DNA of 64,000 nt from Streptomyces marispadix. Its GTDB lineage: Bacteria; Actinomycetota; Actinomycetes; Streptomycetales; Streptomycetaceae. Positions 13,433-34,222 of the stretch are shown here, in pieces. Within the stretch, counting starts at the first letter, position 1. Each line of letters opens with the position of its first letter. Location: the NCBI RefSeq assembly GCF_022524345.1, contig NZ_JAKWJU010000002.1, positions 3,162,001-3,226,000 on the forward strand, read 5' to 3'. The notes below the pieces were generated by a model. That model did no database searches. It was not told where the DNA came from and worked only from the letters and a program-made list of their open reading frames with translations. The position numbers and the translations under genes are program-made.

Positions 13433-14266
13433 TCAACTGCCGTACCGGGCACCGCCGTTGACCTGCACGATCTGGCCGGTCACATGACCTGCTCCGGGCG
13501 AGGCGAGCCAGTGGACGGTCTCCGCCACGTCCTCCGGCGTACCCGCGCGGCCCGTGACGGTCTGCGCGGCGAGCATCCTGCGCCGCTCCTCGGTCATGCC
13601 TACGCCGAAGAAGTCGGTGGCCTCGACATAGCCGGGCGCGACCGCGTTCACCGTCGCGCCGTGCGGGCCCAGCCGTCCCGCGAGGTCGAAGGCGTAGGGG
13701 TGGAGTGCGGCCTTCGCGGCGGCGTACGAGTCCGTGCCGGAGCCTCTGAAGGCCGCGATGGAGCTGATCAGGACCACCCGGCGGCCCGGCCGGCGCAGCA
13801 GCCCCGCGAGCGCTTCGACGAGGAGTACGGCGGTGAGCACGTTCGACTCGAAGTTCGACCGCCAACTGCGTGCGATGTCCTCAAGTCCGGCGGACGCGTC
13901 GGCTGCGGAGGCGTCGGCGTCGGCTGCGGAGGCGTCGCCCTCGGGAGCGTCGGCCGTATCGGCGGGCGCGGACGCGTACTTGACATTTCCGCCCGCGTTG
14001 GCGACCAGCACGTCCAGGCGCCCGTACAGCCTGTCGGTCTCCTCGCGCACGCGCAGGGCGTCCCCCGGGACGGTGAGATCGGCCGCGAGGGTACGGATCT
14101 CCCCGCGCACGGCTTCGTCCGCCGCGAGGGCTTCCGCGGTACGCCGCAGCACCGCCACCCGGCGTCCGACCAGCAGCACGCGGTCGCCGCCGGCGGCGAA
14201 GCGGCGGGCGGCGGCACGGCCGATGCCCGTACCGCCGCCGCTGACGATCACGACCCTGTCGCCCAT
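13433..14266 (-). CDS. Short-chain dehydrogenase/reductase (SDR)
   Basis: About 277 aa, Rossmann fold. Cofactor motif SGGGTGIGRAAARRFA, NAG motif VLVANAGG, catalytic Ser in VVLISSIAAF, YxxxK in DSYAAAKAA, and C-terminal VTGQIVQVNGGARYG. Between the NAG motif and the next helix is an Ala/Asp/Ser-rich insertion of about 25 residues (EGDASAADADASAADASAG), absent from typical members and probably a surface loop. The ATG at 14266 follows GGAAGGGAC. The substrate cannot be predicted. Confidence 0.9.
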   Translation of the reverse strand: MGDRVVIVSGGGTGIGRAAARRFAAGGDRVLLVGRRVAVLRRTAEALAADEAVRGEIRTLAADLTVPGDALRVREETDRLYGRLDVLVANAGGNVKYASAPADTADAPEGDASAADADASAADASAGLEDIARSWRSNFESNVLTAVLLVEALAGLLRRPGRRVVLISSIAAFRGSGTDSYAAAKAALHPYAFDLAGRLGPHGATVNAVAPGYVEATDFFGVGMTEERRRMLAAQTVTGRAGTPEDVAETVHWLASPGAGHVTGQIVQVNGGARYGS

Positions 14267-14339
14267 GCCGTCCCTTCCGTGGTCCTCGCGGTGCCGCAAG
14301 GGTGTCCGCACCGGCGGCCCGGTGCGGACACCCCGTCGC

Positions 14340-14822
14340 TCACACGCCCGCGTGCGCCTTGCGCAGCGCCTCGATGTCCAGCTTCTTCATGGTGTACATC
14401 GCCTCGGTGGTCCGCTTCGCCTTCTCCGGGTCGGGGTCGGTGACCAGCTCGACGGCCCCGGCGGGGATGATCTGCCAGGACACGCCGTACTTGTCCTTCA
14501 GCCAGCCGCAGGGGCCTTCCTCGCCGCCGTCCTCGACGAAGCGGTTCCAGTAGTGGTCGACCTCCTCCTGGTCGTCGCAGTGGATCTGGAAGGAGATCGC
14601 CTCGGAGAACTTGAACTGCGGGCCGCCGTTGAGCCCCATGAACTTCTGCCCGTTGATCTCGAACTCGACGGCCATCACCGATCCGGGCGTCCCCGGCCCG
14701 GCATCGTTGTAGCGGCCGACCCTTCCGAGCTTGGAATTCTTGAACAGGGAGATGTAGTACTCCGCCGCCTCCTCTGCCTGCCCGTCGAACCACAGACAGG
14801 TGGTGAAGCCGTCGCCCGTCAT
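14340..14822 (-). CDS. PhnB-like VOC superfamily protein
   Basis: About 160 aa. The sequence FTTCLWFDGQAEEAAEYYISLF with FEINGQKFMGLNGGP and VDHYWNRFVEDGGEEGPCGWLKDKYGVSWQIIP is typical of the 3-demethylubiquinone-9 3-methyltransferase-like (PhnB) branch of the glyoxalase/bleomycin-resistance fold. Members are metal-dependent or metal-free binding proteins of varied function, and the methyltransferase name is historical. GGAGG lies before the ATG at 14822. It ends 73 nt from the SDR start and may share its transcript. Confidence 0.88.
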   Translation of the reverse strand: MTGDGFTTCLWFDGQAEEAAEYYISLFKNSKLGRVGRYNDAGPGTPGSVMAVEFEINGQKFMGLNGGPQFKFSEAISFQIHCDDQEEVDHYWNRFVEDGGEEGPCGWLKDKYGVSWQIIPAGAVELVTDPDPEKAKRTTEAMYTMKKLDIEALRKAHAGV

Positions 14823-32021: not shown

Positions 32022-32459
32022 GTGAGCACATTCGACTCTCCCGTCCCCCGCTTCCATCTCGCCATGCCCGTCGACGACTTGGAAGCCGCGCGGCACTTCT
32101 ACGGCGAGGTGCTCGGCTTGGAGCAGGGGCGCAGCGCGGAGACGTGGACGGACTGGAATCTGCACGGGCACCAGTTCGTCACGCATCTCGCACCCGGCCG
32201 CGCCGATGGCGGCGCGAGCAATCCCGTCGACGGGCACGACGTTCCCGTGCCGCACTTCGGGCTCATCCTGGCGGTGCCCGAGTTCCACAGGCTGGCGGAG
32301 CGGCTGCGGGCCGCGGGCACCGAGTTCGTGATCGAGCCGTATGTACGGTTCGAGGGGCAGCCGGGGGAGCAGTGGACGATGTTCCTGCGCGATCCGGCTG
32401 GAAACGCGCTGGAGTTCAAGGCGTTCGCCGACGACTCGCAGGTGTTCGCCACCGACTGA
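32022..32459 (+). CDS. VOC-family dioxygenase/glyoxalase-like protein
   Basis: About 145 aa. [49 protein letters not shown] and [32 protein letters not shown] and [21 protein letters not shown] form the paired beta-alpha-beta modules of the vicinal-oxygen-chelate fold. His in the first strand, the second-module HFG and the Glu of NALEFK are the likely metal ligands. The GTG at 32022 has GAAGGAAGG upstream. Substrate unknown. Confidence 0.88.
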
Positions 32460-32793
32460 GGCGCCACTGCCTGCCGTATGCGTCGGCCACCGGCTCGGAG
32501 AGGACGAGAGACACCTTCCGGCATGCTCCGTTCTTGCTCCGGAGTAGCCCATTCCTGAAAGGGAGGCACCTGAAGGTCCTGCGGGAGCGCCGACCGTGGA
32601 ACAGCTTGCCCAAGCGCTCGACGCCGCTTCCTCCGAGACGCCCTCCGCGCAAGGCGTTCGGGCAGTCGAGCGGTGAGACCGGCAACTGACGTGCCGGGCG
32701 CGGCAGTCGGCGCCCCGGTGCACGGCGAAGGCCCCGGCACAGGCGCACGTCGCGCGCCGTACCGGGGCCCGTTGTCGCAGGCGGTCGGCCAGT
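32460..32793. other. Intergenic region with a terminator and no confident gene
   Basis: About 330 nt between the VOC gene and the convergent peptide gene. A 26-codon frame from GTG 32596 was considered and rejected. The only firm element is the hairpin at 32730-32769. Confidence 0.5.
32730..32769. terminator. Bidirectional terminator, VOC gene / peptide gene A
   Basis: GGCCCCGG (32730-32737) and CCGGGGCC (32762-32769) are perfect arms; an inner GGCGC/GCGCC pairing extends the structure. It lies between convergent genes, just downstream of peptide gene A. Confidence 0.7.
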
Positions 32794-33030
32794 TCAGCCG
32801 ACGATGCCGGAGGCGCCCTCCACGGCGGGCATACCGGCGTTGATCGTGCCGTTGAGGCCGCCAAGGCCGGGGACGCCGCTGTTCACGCTGGCGGCGACAC
32901 CGCCCGGGCCGGGGGTGACGTCGACGCTGGCCAGGCCGCCGGGGAGCGAGGCGCCCACGCCGCCGGAGACGCCGTCGAGTTCGGCGTCGGAGATCTCGGC
33001 GGTCTCGATCTGAGGTGCCATGTCACGCAT
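32794..33030 (-). CDS. Glycine-rich peptide A with double-glycine leader (RiPP-precursor-like)
   Basis: About 78 aa from the ATG at 33030; a TTG 4 codons earlier is the alternative. The leader (first 24 residues) has APQIETAEISDAELDGVSGG ending in Gly-Gly, the layout recognised by C39-peptidase ABC exporters. The following 54-residue core is Gly/Val/Ala/Ser/Pro-rich, has no Cys, aromatic or basic residue, carries a slight negative charge and ends GASGIVG. A paralogue with a near-identical leader lies at 33430-33672. Similar leaders are labelled type A2 lantipeptide in some Streptomyces annotations, but the absence of Cys and of any LanM or LanC gene argues against lanthionine formation. Function unknown. 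Confidence 0.75.
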   Translation of the reverse strand: MRDMAPQIETAEISDAELDGVSGGVGASLPGGLASVDVTPGPGGVAASVNSGVPGLGGLNGTINAGMPAVEGASGIVG

Positions 33031-33429
33031 GAGAAGTTCCAATCAACGAGCGGGGGACGTGATGCCGGTGGTGCCTGAACGAGTGTCCGGGAGTACCGGC
33101 AGTCGTGGGATCAGACCATCTCTGCGGAGCGCCCTGCCACTTGTCACACCCGTCTCCCTCATCATCCTCACGTGATCTTCTGATTCGTTACCGATCTCTG
33201 CGTCAACAGGCCGTCTTCGAAGGTGACTTGGAAGACTTCGCATGGAATTACGGGCACGCCGGACAACACGGCGACGACGGAAACCCGATCCGCGGGGCAC
33301 GCCGCGCGGAAACACGACCGATGAGATCCGACCGGCGGAACACGACAAGCGGAACGCGGCAGAGCCCCGGCTCGTGTGCAATCGCACTCAGGCGTCGCAC
33401 ACGGGCCGGGGCCCTGGAAGCGAAGGTAC
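33031..33429 (-). promoter_or_regulatory. Leader and promoter region of peptide gene A
   Basis: No gene is seen. The 20-nt block AAGTTCCAATCAACGAGCGG next to the start codon is identical upstream of peptide gene B. The block at 33109-33140 matches 26 of 32 positions with 33733-33764 upstream of gene B, and a further T/C-rich block near 33157-33186 is also similar. Shared sequence this far upstream indicates duplication of the whole transcription unit and probably common regulation. Confidence 0.65.
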
Positions 33430-33672
33430 TCAGCCGACGAGGCCGGTGACGCTGCTCACGCCGGGGAGGCTGCTGCTCAGGGCGGGGGCCGAGCCGCTGA
33501 CGCTGCCCGAGACGCCGCCGACGCCGTCGATGCCGCCGGCCACGTTGCCGGCCACGCCGTCCAGGCCGGCGGAGAGGTCGCCGCCCAGGCCGGCGCTCAC
33601 GCCGCCCGACACGTTGTCGAGGTCGGCGTCCGAGATCTCGGCGGTCTCGATCTGAGGCGTCATGTCACGCAT
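33430..33672 (-). CDS. Glycine-rich peptide B with double-glycine leader (RiPP-precursor-like)
   Basis: About 80 aa from the ATG at 33672. The leader TPQIETAEISDADLDNVSGG differs from that of peptide A at three positions. The 56-residue core is rich in Gly, Ser, Val and Ala with recurring GVxG/AGGI units, contains no Cys, aromatic or basic residue, and ends SSVTGLVG. The cores of A and B share composition and their C-terminal hydrophobic-V-G ending but little sequence, the pattern seen where leaders are constrained by a processing enzyme and cores diversify. No processing or export gene is in the window. Function unknown. Confidence 0.75.
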   Translation of the reverse strand: MRDMTPQIETAEISDADLDNVSGGVSAGLGGDLSAGLDGVAGNVAGGIDGVGGVSGSVSGSAPALSSSLPGVSSVTGLVG

Positions 33673-34222
33673 GCGAAGTTCCAATCAACGAGCGGGAAGT
33701 TGACCCCCAAGGGACAACATTGGAGGTCGGAAGATCAGAACATCTCGCCGGGCGGCCCTGCCACTCCAGGAAACCTTCTCCTTCTGATCCTCACCTCATC
33801 TTTCGATTTGCGAAGTCCGTCAGCGACCGTCACGGAACCGTCCGTCGGTCCCGGTGCCGACCGGTGCGCCCCGCTCTCCGCAAGCACGCGAGGACAACCA
33901 AGCGGACCGCGATATTCCGCTGTATGCAGGGGAGTTGGCGTCGGCGAGCGAGACCGCGGTGCCCCCGCCGGGCCCTGTCCCTTACGTCCGCTCCCGCACC
34001 CGCGGACCCTTTCGGGCGGCCAGACGGCATGCATCCGCGTGCGACACCGTGAAGATCTCGTGTGCGCGCTCTGCACCCCGGATCCACTCCCGAGACCGCC
34101 GCCGGGACCGTGCCGACACCCGCCGTGCCCGCACCGTTCAGCTCAACGCACGTACGGCTCACGGAAGTTCAGCTTCGCTGAGCGCGGCTCAGGGCCTCGC
34201 TCGGCACTGCCGTGCCCTCGGC
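33673..34222 (-). promoter_or_regulatory. Leader and promoter region of peptide gene B
   Basis: About 550 nt without a convincing gene. The proximal 95 nt contain the blocks shared with peptide gene A (33673-33697 and 33733-33764). The distal part, towards 34222, has small dyads such as TCAGC-TTC-GCTGA (34169-34181), a possible end for the endonuclease/exonuclease-family transcript. Confidence 0.5.

Follow-up and report, generated by a model that had tools for sequence, protein, structure and literature searches.

Unmodified class II bacteriocins and class II microcins combine a double-glycine leader and a Gly-rich core with a C39 ABC exporter and an HlyD-type accessory protein, and typical class II bacteriocins bear a net positive charge. 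The family of small peptides described here, represented by two tandem genes (A and B) of Streptomyces marispadix, resembles these systems in the double-glycine leader, the Gly-rich core and the C39 exporter with an HlyD-type protein, but differs from them in that its cores are neutral or anionic, no immunity gene is recognised, and most of the sampled genomes of the genus possess it.

The NHLM systems with NHLP and N11P precursors, as presented in the part of PMC2887384 available to us, have exporters of the families TIGR03794, TIGR03796 and TIGR03797, as here; their leaders end in a ELSDEQLDAVAGG-type sequence, shared with the A/B family, and again several precursors occur per genome, some of them far from the export genes. 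The logo given in that part has acidic residues at positions 1, 4 and 6, Leu at 2 and 7, Ser or Thr at 3, Val or Leu at 10, and Gly-Gly at 12-13; by our own judgement, the last 13 leader residues of our peptides (EISDAELDGVSGG, EISDADLDNVSGG) match it save for Ile instead of Leu at position 2. The same text argues that such leaders are constrained by their handling in the transport system more than by modification enzymes. The differences lie in the leader length (around 20-25 residues here, versus averages of 83 and 70 for NHLP and N11P in the available part of PMC2887384) and in the operon linked to the exporter, in which no modification enzyme is seen, as well as in the lack of Cys pairs. 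Streptomyces is not named among the adjacencies in the portion of that paper available to us.

The prochlorosins and synechococsins, according to the accessible part of PMC10783134, also join a constant Gly-Gly leader to varied cores and are scattered away from their shared machinery. What they share, however, is a lanthionine synthetase, and the Cys positions of their cores are relatively conserved, whereas in our case cleavage and export alone are indicated. The accessible part of a mining study (PMC3951391) raised the idea that orphan LanT transporters might serve bacteriocins encoded elsewhere. Our literature search, which covered few subscription journals, returned zero papers for the leader string and no description for NHLM-type terms combined with Streptomyces; the only account of the A/B family that it yielded is the label "type A2 lantipeptide" attached, in the part of PMC13047742 seen, to a Streptomyces gene that has Peptidase_C39 in its region. 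Compared with the known scattered-precursor systems, the distinguishing features are the short leader, the lack of a modification enzyme and, as far as sampled, the restriction to Streptomyces and Actinacidiphila.

Genes A and B and Their Surroundings

Both genes lie on the minus strand of the window, i.e., the whole stretch of 64,000 nucleotides that was analysed. Gene A (32794..33030, stop codon included) encodes a precursor of 78 amino acids and gene B (33430..33672, stop codon included) one of 80, as the initial annotation had it; both open with ATG, and an in-frame TTG four codons upstream of each ATG would extend the products to 82 and 84 amino acids, respectively. The leaders, MRDMAPQIETAEISDAELDGVSGG in A (32959..33030, minus strand) and MRDMTPQIETAEISDADLDNVSGG in B (33601..33672, minus strand), were rightly described as nearly identical and ending in SGG: each has 24 residues, 21 of which are the same, and 64 of the 72 leader nucleotides are identical. 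The core of A (32797..32958, minus strand) has 54 residues and a predicted unmodified monoisotopic mass of 4681.40 Da, and that of B (33433..33600, minus strand) 56 residues and 4751.41 Da. Also in line with the initial annotation, neither core contains Cys, basic or aromatic residues, and they end in IVG and LVG. The statement that they have hardly any sequence in common is not borne out: they align end to end with a local score of 90, which is 5.2 SD above shuffles (mean 51.8, SD 7.4) and was reached by none of 2000. The cores of A and B are thus diverged tandem duplicates and not unrelated sequences. At the DNA level, a duplicated block of 122 nt covers the 5' region, leader and core start of A (32933..33054, minus strand), and its copy in gene B (33575..33696, minus strand) is 86% identical. 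The predicted structure of B gave no usable model (mean pLDDT 50.3).

Upstream of A and B lie the elements AAGATCACGTGAGGATGA (33162..33179, minus strand) and AAGATGAGGTGAGGATCA (33785..33802, minus strand), respectively, inside a conserved block around GATNNNGTGAGGAT, most positions of which are kept in all 10 of the regions preceding A and B in five genomes. A search of the whole genome allowing up to two mismatches returned two sites, those of A and B themselves, and the reversed control returned one, so the element does not define a regulon. Directly 3' of B, a hairpin without a T run (33355..33416, minus strand; fold of 33355-33432, z -6.9) probably ends the B transcript. The hairpin after A is weaker (z -2.9; one of 200 shuffles folds equally well). 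The terminator scan reported neither of them, as both lack the required T run; the promoter scan around A and B found none, and the region 32400-34200 had no match in Rfam at gathering scores. As hairpins follow both genes, though without a T run, A and B probably form separate transcripts.

The profile scan of the neighbouring genes identified PhoX, a methyltransferase, a glyoxalase-fold protein and an endonuclease/exonuclease/phosphatase protein; a further neighbour we take, from its sequence alone, to be methionyl-tRNA synthetase. This bears out the earlier remark that A and B adjoin neither a modification enzyme nor a C39 transporter nor any recognisable immunity gene. The pair recurs in the same order and with open frames in four other genomes (Streptomyces sp. 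WMMB 322, HNM0575, S. abyssalis and S. nanshensis), which is more than chance would give. In all four it is flanked by the synthetase cluster (21) on one side and the PhoX cluster (22) on the other, and the phosphatase cluster (42) was called in two of them.

Across the five genomes, the A and B leaders have dN/dS values of 0.09-0.49 and their cores values of 0.34-1.40, whilst the core of the exporter-linked peptide discussed below (94-98% identical) has 0.08-0.25; all these values are rough because the sequences are short. The fast evolution of the A and B cores makes a loss of function in some lineages possible. That A and B are decaying duplicates which have lost expression or maturation would agree with core dN/dS values of up to 1.40 and with a tandem duplication still visible in the DNA; it is nevertheless improbable in view of the conserved leaders, the open frames in all five genomes and the block retained in 10 of 10 upstream regions.

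A C39 Exporter in the Same Genome

The S. marispadix genome contains two C39 matches, one in a lanthipeptide locus and the other in a complete NHLM-type exporter with the gene order precursor, HlyD, ABC1, ABC2. In the latter, the C39 peptidase/permease/ATPase subunit family TIGR03796 is matched with 1006.2 bits (cut-off 853.3), TIGR03797 with 877.6 bits (cut-off 709.4) in the same gene row, and TIGR03794 with 161.6 bits (cut-off 156.2), also in the exporter gene row. The C39 protein contains the motifs ECG, NHYVV and NDPDKG, which we take to provide the catalytic Cys, His and Asp of the peptidase. Directly before the exporter genes lies a linked precursor of 67 residues (MDFIETREISDNDLDNVSGG followed by VLGSVVGT...), and no modification enzyme was seen in this operon. 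The exporter and its precursor are located approximately 0.56 Mb from A and B. The linked leader, IETREISDNDLDNVSGG, is identical to the last 17 leader residues of B at 15 positions and to those of A and of a third unlinked precursor, C, at 13 positions each.

Precursor C (G000:C2:3138323-3138493; L092:1501-1710) lies 23.5 kb left of the window, has the sequence MSDTSRIETREIADAELDAVSGG... and adjoins a cytochrome P450 gene; its core family recurs in two further genomes (G191 and G137). The source genome therefore has one linked and three unlinked precursors (A, B and C). Unmodified, the cores of C and of the linked peptide have predicted monoisotopic masses of 4405.25 and 4285.22 Da, respectively. 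Since A, B, the linked precursor and orthologues were among the sequences used to build the family profile, only C is independent among the matches in its own genome. The core of A is not similar to that of C or to the linked core above shuffles, and the core of B shows a weak similarity to the linked core (26 of 2000 shuffles reach the score).

The near identity of the A and B leaders with the leader linked to the exporter indicates that one exporter probably serves several scattered peptides. We consider it quite likely that this NHLM-type exporter takes A and B as satellite cargo in trans, cleaving them after Gly-Gly and probably releasing them unmodified. If A and B are expressed, their EISDxxLDxVSGG leaders would be bound by the C39 domain, which would cleave both precursors after Gly-Gly. 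The exporter, comprising the HlyD-like adaptor, the C39 ABC protein and the second ABC protein, would then pass the cores of 54 and 56 residues outside, most likely without chemical modification. The initial annotation had offered two options, maturation supplied in trans and an undescribed route without processing. The former is supported by the full C39 exporter and the nearly identical linked leader in the same genome and by the co-occurrence presented below; the latter is not needed. This latter route, on which uncut A and B would function at the cell surface or within the cytoplasm and require no exporter, is the least probable of the readings considered: the cores are indeed hydrophobic and uncharged to anionic, and no processing gene adjoins A and B, but a near-identical leader stands on a precursor next to a C39 exporter, and precursors and exporters co-occur almost perfectly.

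Among the genomes with the A/B pair, the exporter exceeds the cut-off in the source genome and in three of the other four. In S. nanshensis, a contig breaks off after the linked precursor and HlyD gene, and another contig carries the second ABC gene; as the operon is broken at this end, the C39 gene probably sits in the assembly gap.

Co-Occurrence and Layout across Streptomyces

The protein search retrieved 18 homologues. Scanning genome contigs with the profile yielded 369 relatives, and the 79 best loci among them bear the titles Streptomyces or Actinacidiphila. In 69 of these 79, the stretch analysed contains an ABC transporter belonging to the exporter cluster, a grouping by single linkage at 30% identity that may include other ABC transporters; the four A/B-pair loci are among the remaining ten. 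In the typical linked locus, the precursor is accompanied by an HlyD-like protein of approximately 268 residues, a C39 ABC transporter and a second ABC transporter. A sample of the class comprising 296 genomes gave 22 profile matches, all in Streptomyces, and none in the 113 other genera of the sample; as far as sampled, the family is confined to Streptomyces and Actinacidiphila.

The check proposed in the initial annotation, co-occurrence of the leader family with a C39 exporter, showed agreement in 287 of 295 Streptomyces genomes. The family profile matched 218 of them and TIGR03796 exceeded its cut-off in 218, with both present in 214, the precursor only in four, the exporter only in four and neither in 73 (Fisher p 6.6e-59, not corrected for ancestry and owing in large part to linked copies). 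At most 20 first-look candidates were scored per genome, and genomes without a listed profile match were counted as negative. The eight discordant genomes are varied. Three of those with a precursor only (G180, G279 and G119) have exporter genes spread over two or three frames, and the fourth (G001) is 79% complete. Among those with an exporter only, the locus of G120 is cut by a contig edge, and the other three (G028, G038 and G188) have lower-scoring exporters (861-944 bits) and no Gly-Gly peptide detected by pattern in the stretches searched. Exporter C39 genes in two or three reading frames were observed at the loci L218, L239 and L225, where either decay or sequencing error may be the cause.

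The arrangement of linked and distant precursors was analysed in 70 multi-copy genomes, hand-picked among those with at least two matches, with few contigs favoured. In all 69 of them with a located exporter, a precursor copy lies within 6 kb of it. Among the matches listed, the remaining copies are placed on another contig or, where they share the exporter's contig, at a median distance of 3.6 Mb from it (range 204 kb to 8.6 Mb). At least 80 copies are unlinked: 77 occur in 61 genomes whose exporter was located, 41 of these copies sharing a contig with it, and three come from G180, which has no exporter over the cut-off and in which one copy adjoins the frame-changed exporter. Stretches of 67 of the 80 were analysed; 57 fit the motif and 10 were dropped. 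The final set also leaves out two copies of G145 (L161). With A, B and C, this gave 60 unlinked peptides.

Leaders and Cores within the Family

At the chosen threshold, the 60 unlinked peptides fall into 13 core families. Between these families, the leaders are 67.2% identical and the cores 25.5%, compared with 22.7% (SD 7.9) for shuffled cores. The match between unlinked and linked leaders is marginally closer within a genome than between genomes (0.757 versus 0.738; permutation p 0.024, 37 copies). The absence of Cys, basic and aromatic residues, true of A and B, does not hold as a rule for all satellites: of the 60 unlinked cores, 49 lack Cys, 40 lack Lys and Arg, and 21 lack Phe, Trp and Tyr. 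The linked cores are Cys-free in 69 of 69 cases. When Lys, Arg, Asp and Glu are counted, the net charge is positive in none of the 129 cores (60 unlinked, 69 linked).

These properties bear on the possibility that A and B, using the same export route, together constitute a two-peptide unmodified class II bacteriocin directed against competitors. Homologous precursors kept paired in the same order in five genomes would suit such a function, as would the double-glycine leader, the C39 exporter and the fast-evolving cores. We regard it as unlikely, however, as no immunity gene is recognised next to A and B, positively charged cores are absent from the family, which is found in 218 of 295 genomes of the genus, and GxxxG is not enriched in either peptide (A, 1 versus a shuffled mean of 3.7; B, 4 versus 4.1). 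With counts not above the shuffled means, GxxxG enrichment was dropped as a mark of two-peptide bacteriocins.

Some homologues carry the source name "type A2 lantipeptide". LanM-type modification is unsupported, since two or more Cys are found in none of the 60 unlinked and none of the 69 linked cores, and no lanthionine synthetase was recognised among the neighbours of A and B or of the linked operon. A lanthipeptide reading of A and B was rejected because their cores have no Cys and LanM is encoded in a separate locus with candidate precursors of its own. This locus (L087; G000:C2:1834500-1853500) encodes two LanM over the cut-off and a C39 transporter, together with two small Cys-rich ORFs as candidate precursors (14076-14231 and 14269-14433, minus strand), and it resembles a two-peptide lantibiotic locus. 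That its C39 transporter and LanM process or modify A and B could be argued from their presence in the genome and from the label of some relatives. It is highly improbable: the two candidate precursors of the locus do not have the EISDxxLDxVSGG leader end, A and B have no Cys and no core of the 129 has two, and the transporter, at 483.5 bits, remains below the TIGR03796 cut-off.

Other peptide families were considered. A and B were unmatched by TIGR03793 (NHLP) and TIGR03798 (N11P) at E values up to 10, a search in which HMMER filters may drop the weakest matches. CTB bacteriocins (NF038167; 11.7 and 7 bits, cut-off 32), which A resembles weakly over the leader, and the graspetide-type target TIGR04497 (A, 13.4 bits, cut-off 32) were rejected. 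Against Pfam, A had a single chance match (E 1.2) and B had no match.

Possible Role and Neighbouring Genes

The mature peptides may act on the surface of the hyphae or within the extracellular matrix, which we hold to be somewhat likelier than killing; the make-up of the cores, the fact that no immunity gene was recognised and the broad distribution of the family weakly favour such a role over a bacteriocin. More tentatively, the family may represent a genus-wide hub-and-spoke mode of secretion. Its hub would be a single leader-cutting exporter with its linked peptide, and its spokes the scattered satellites, which have the leader in common but belong to a dozen or more core families of scant mutual similarity; their unmodified, hydrophobic, neutral-to-anionic cores would build or tune the surface of hyphae or spores instead of killing competitors. 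Most species of Streptomyces, the best-known genus of antibiotic producers, would then secrete sets of small peptides. Cluster-based genome mining would miss joining the satellites to their exporter because of their distance from all processing genes, and some family members bear a misleading lanthipeptide label. The common leader permits the cargo of one exporter to be listed genome by genome.

Among the neighbours of unlinked copies, nothing convincingly common across core families was found. A gene that we take, by inspection of its sequence, to be DUF397-like is located near eight unlinked loci of core families 1, 2 and 3, perhaps by chance, since such genes are common in Streptomyces. At 46 loci, a gene of cluster 2, presumably a secreted trypsin-type protease by its appearance, is found on the opposite strand just upstream of many linked precursors, which may reflect shared gene order only.
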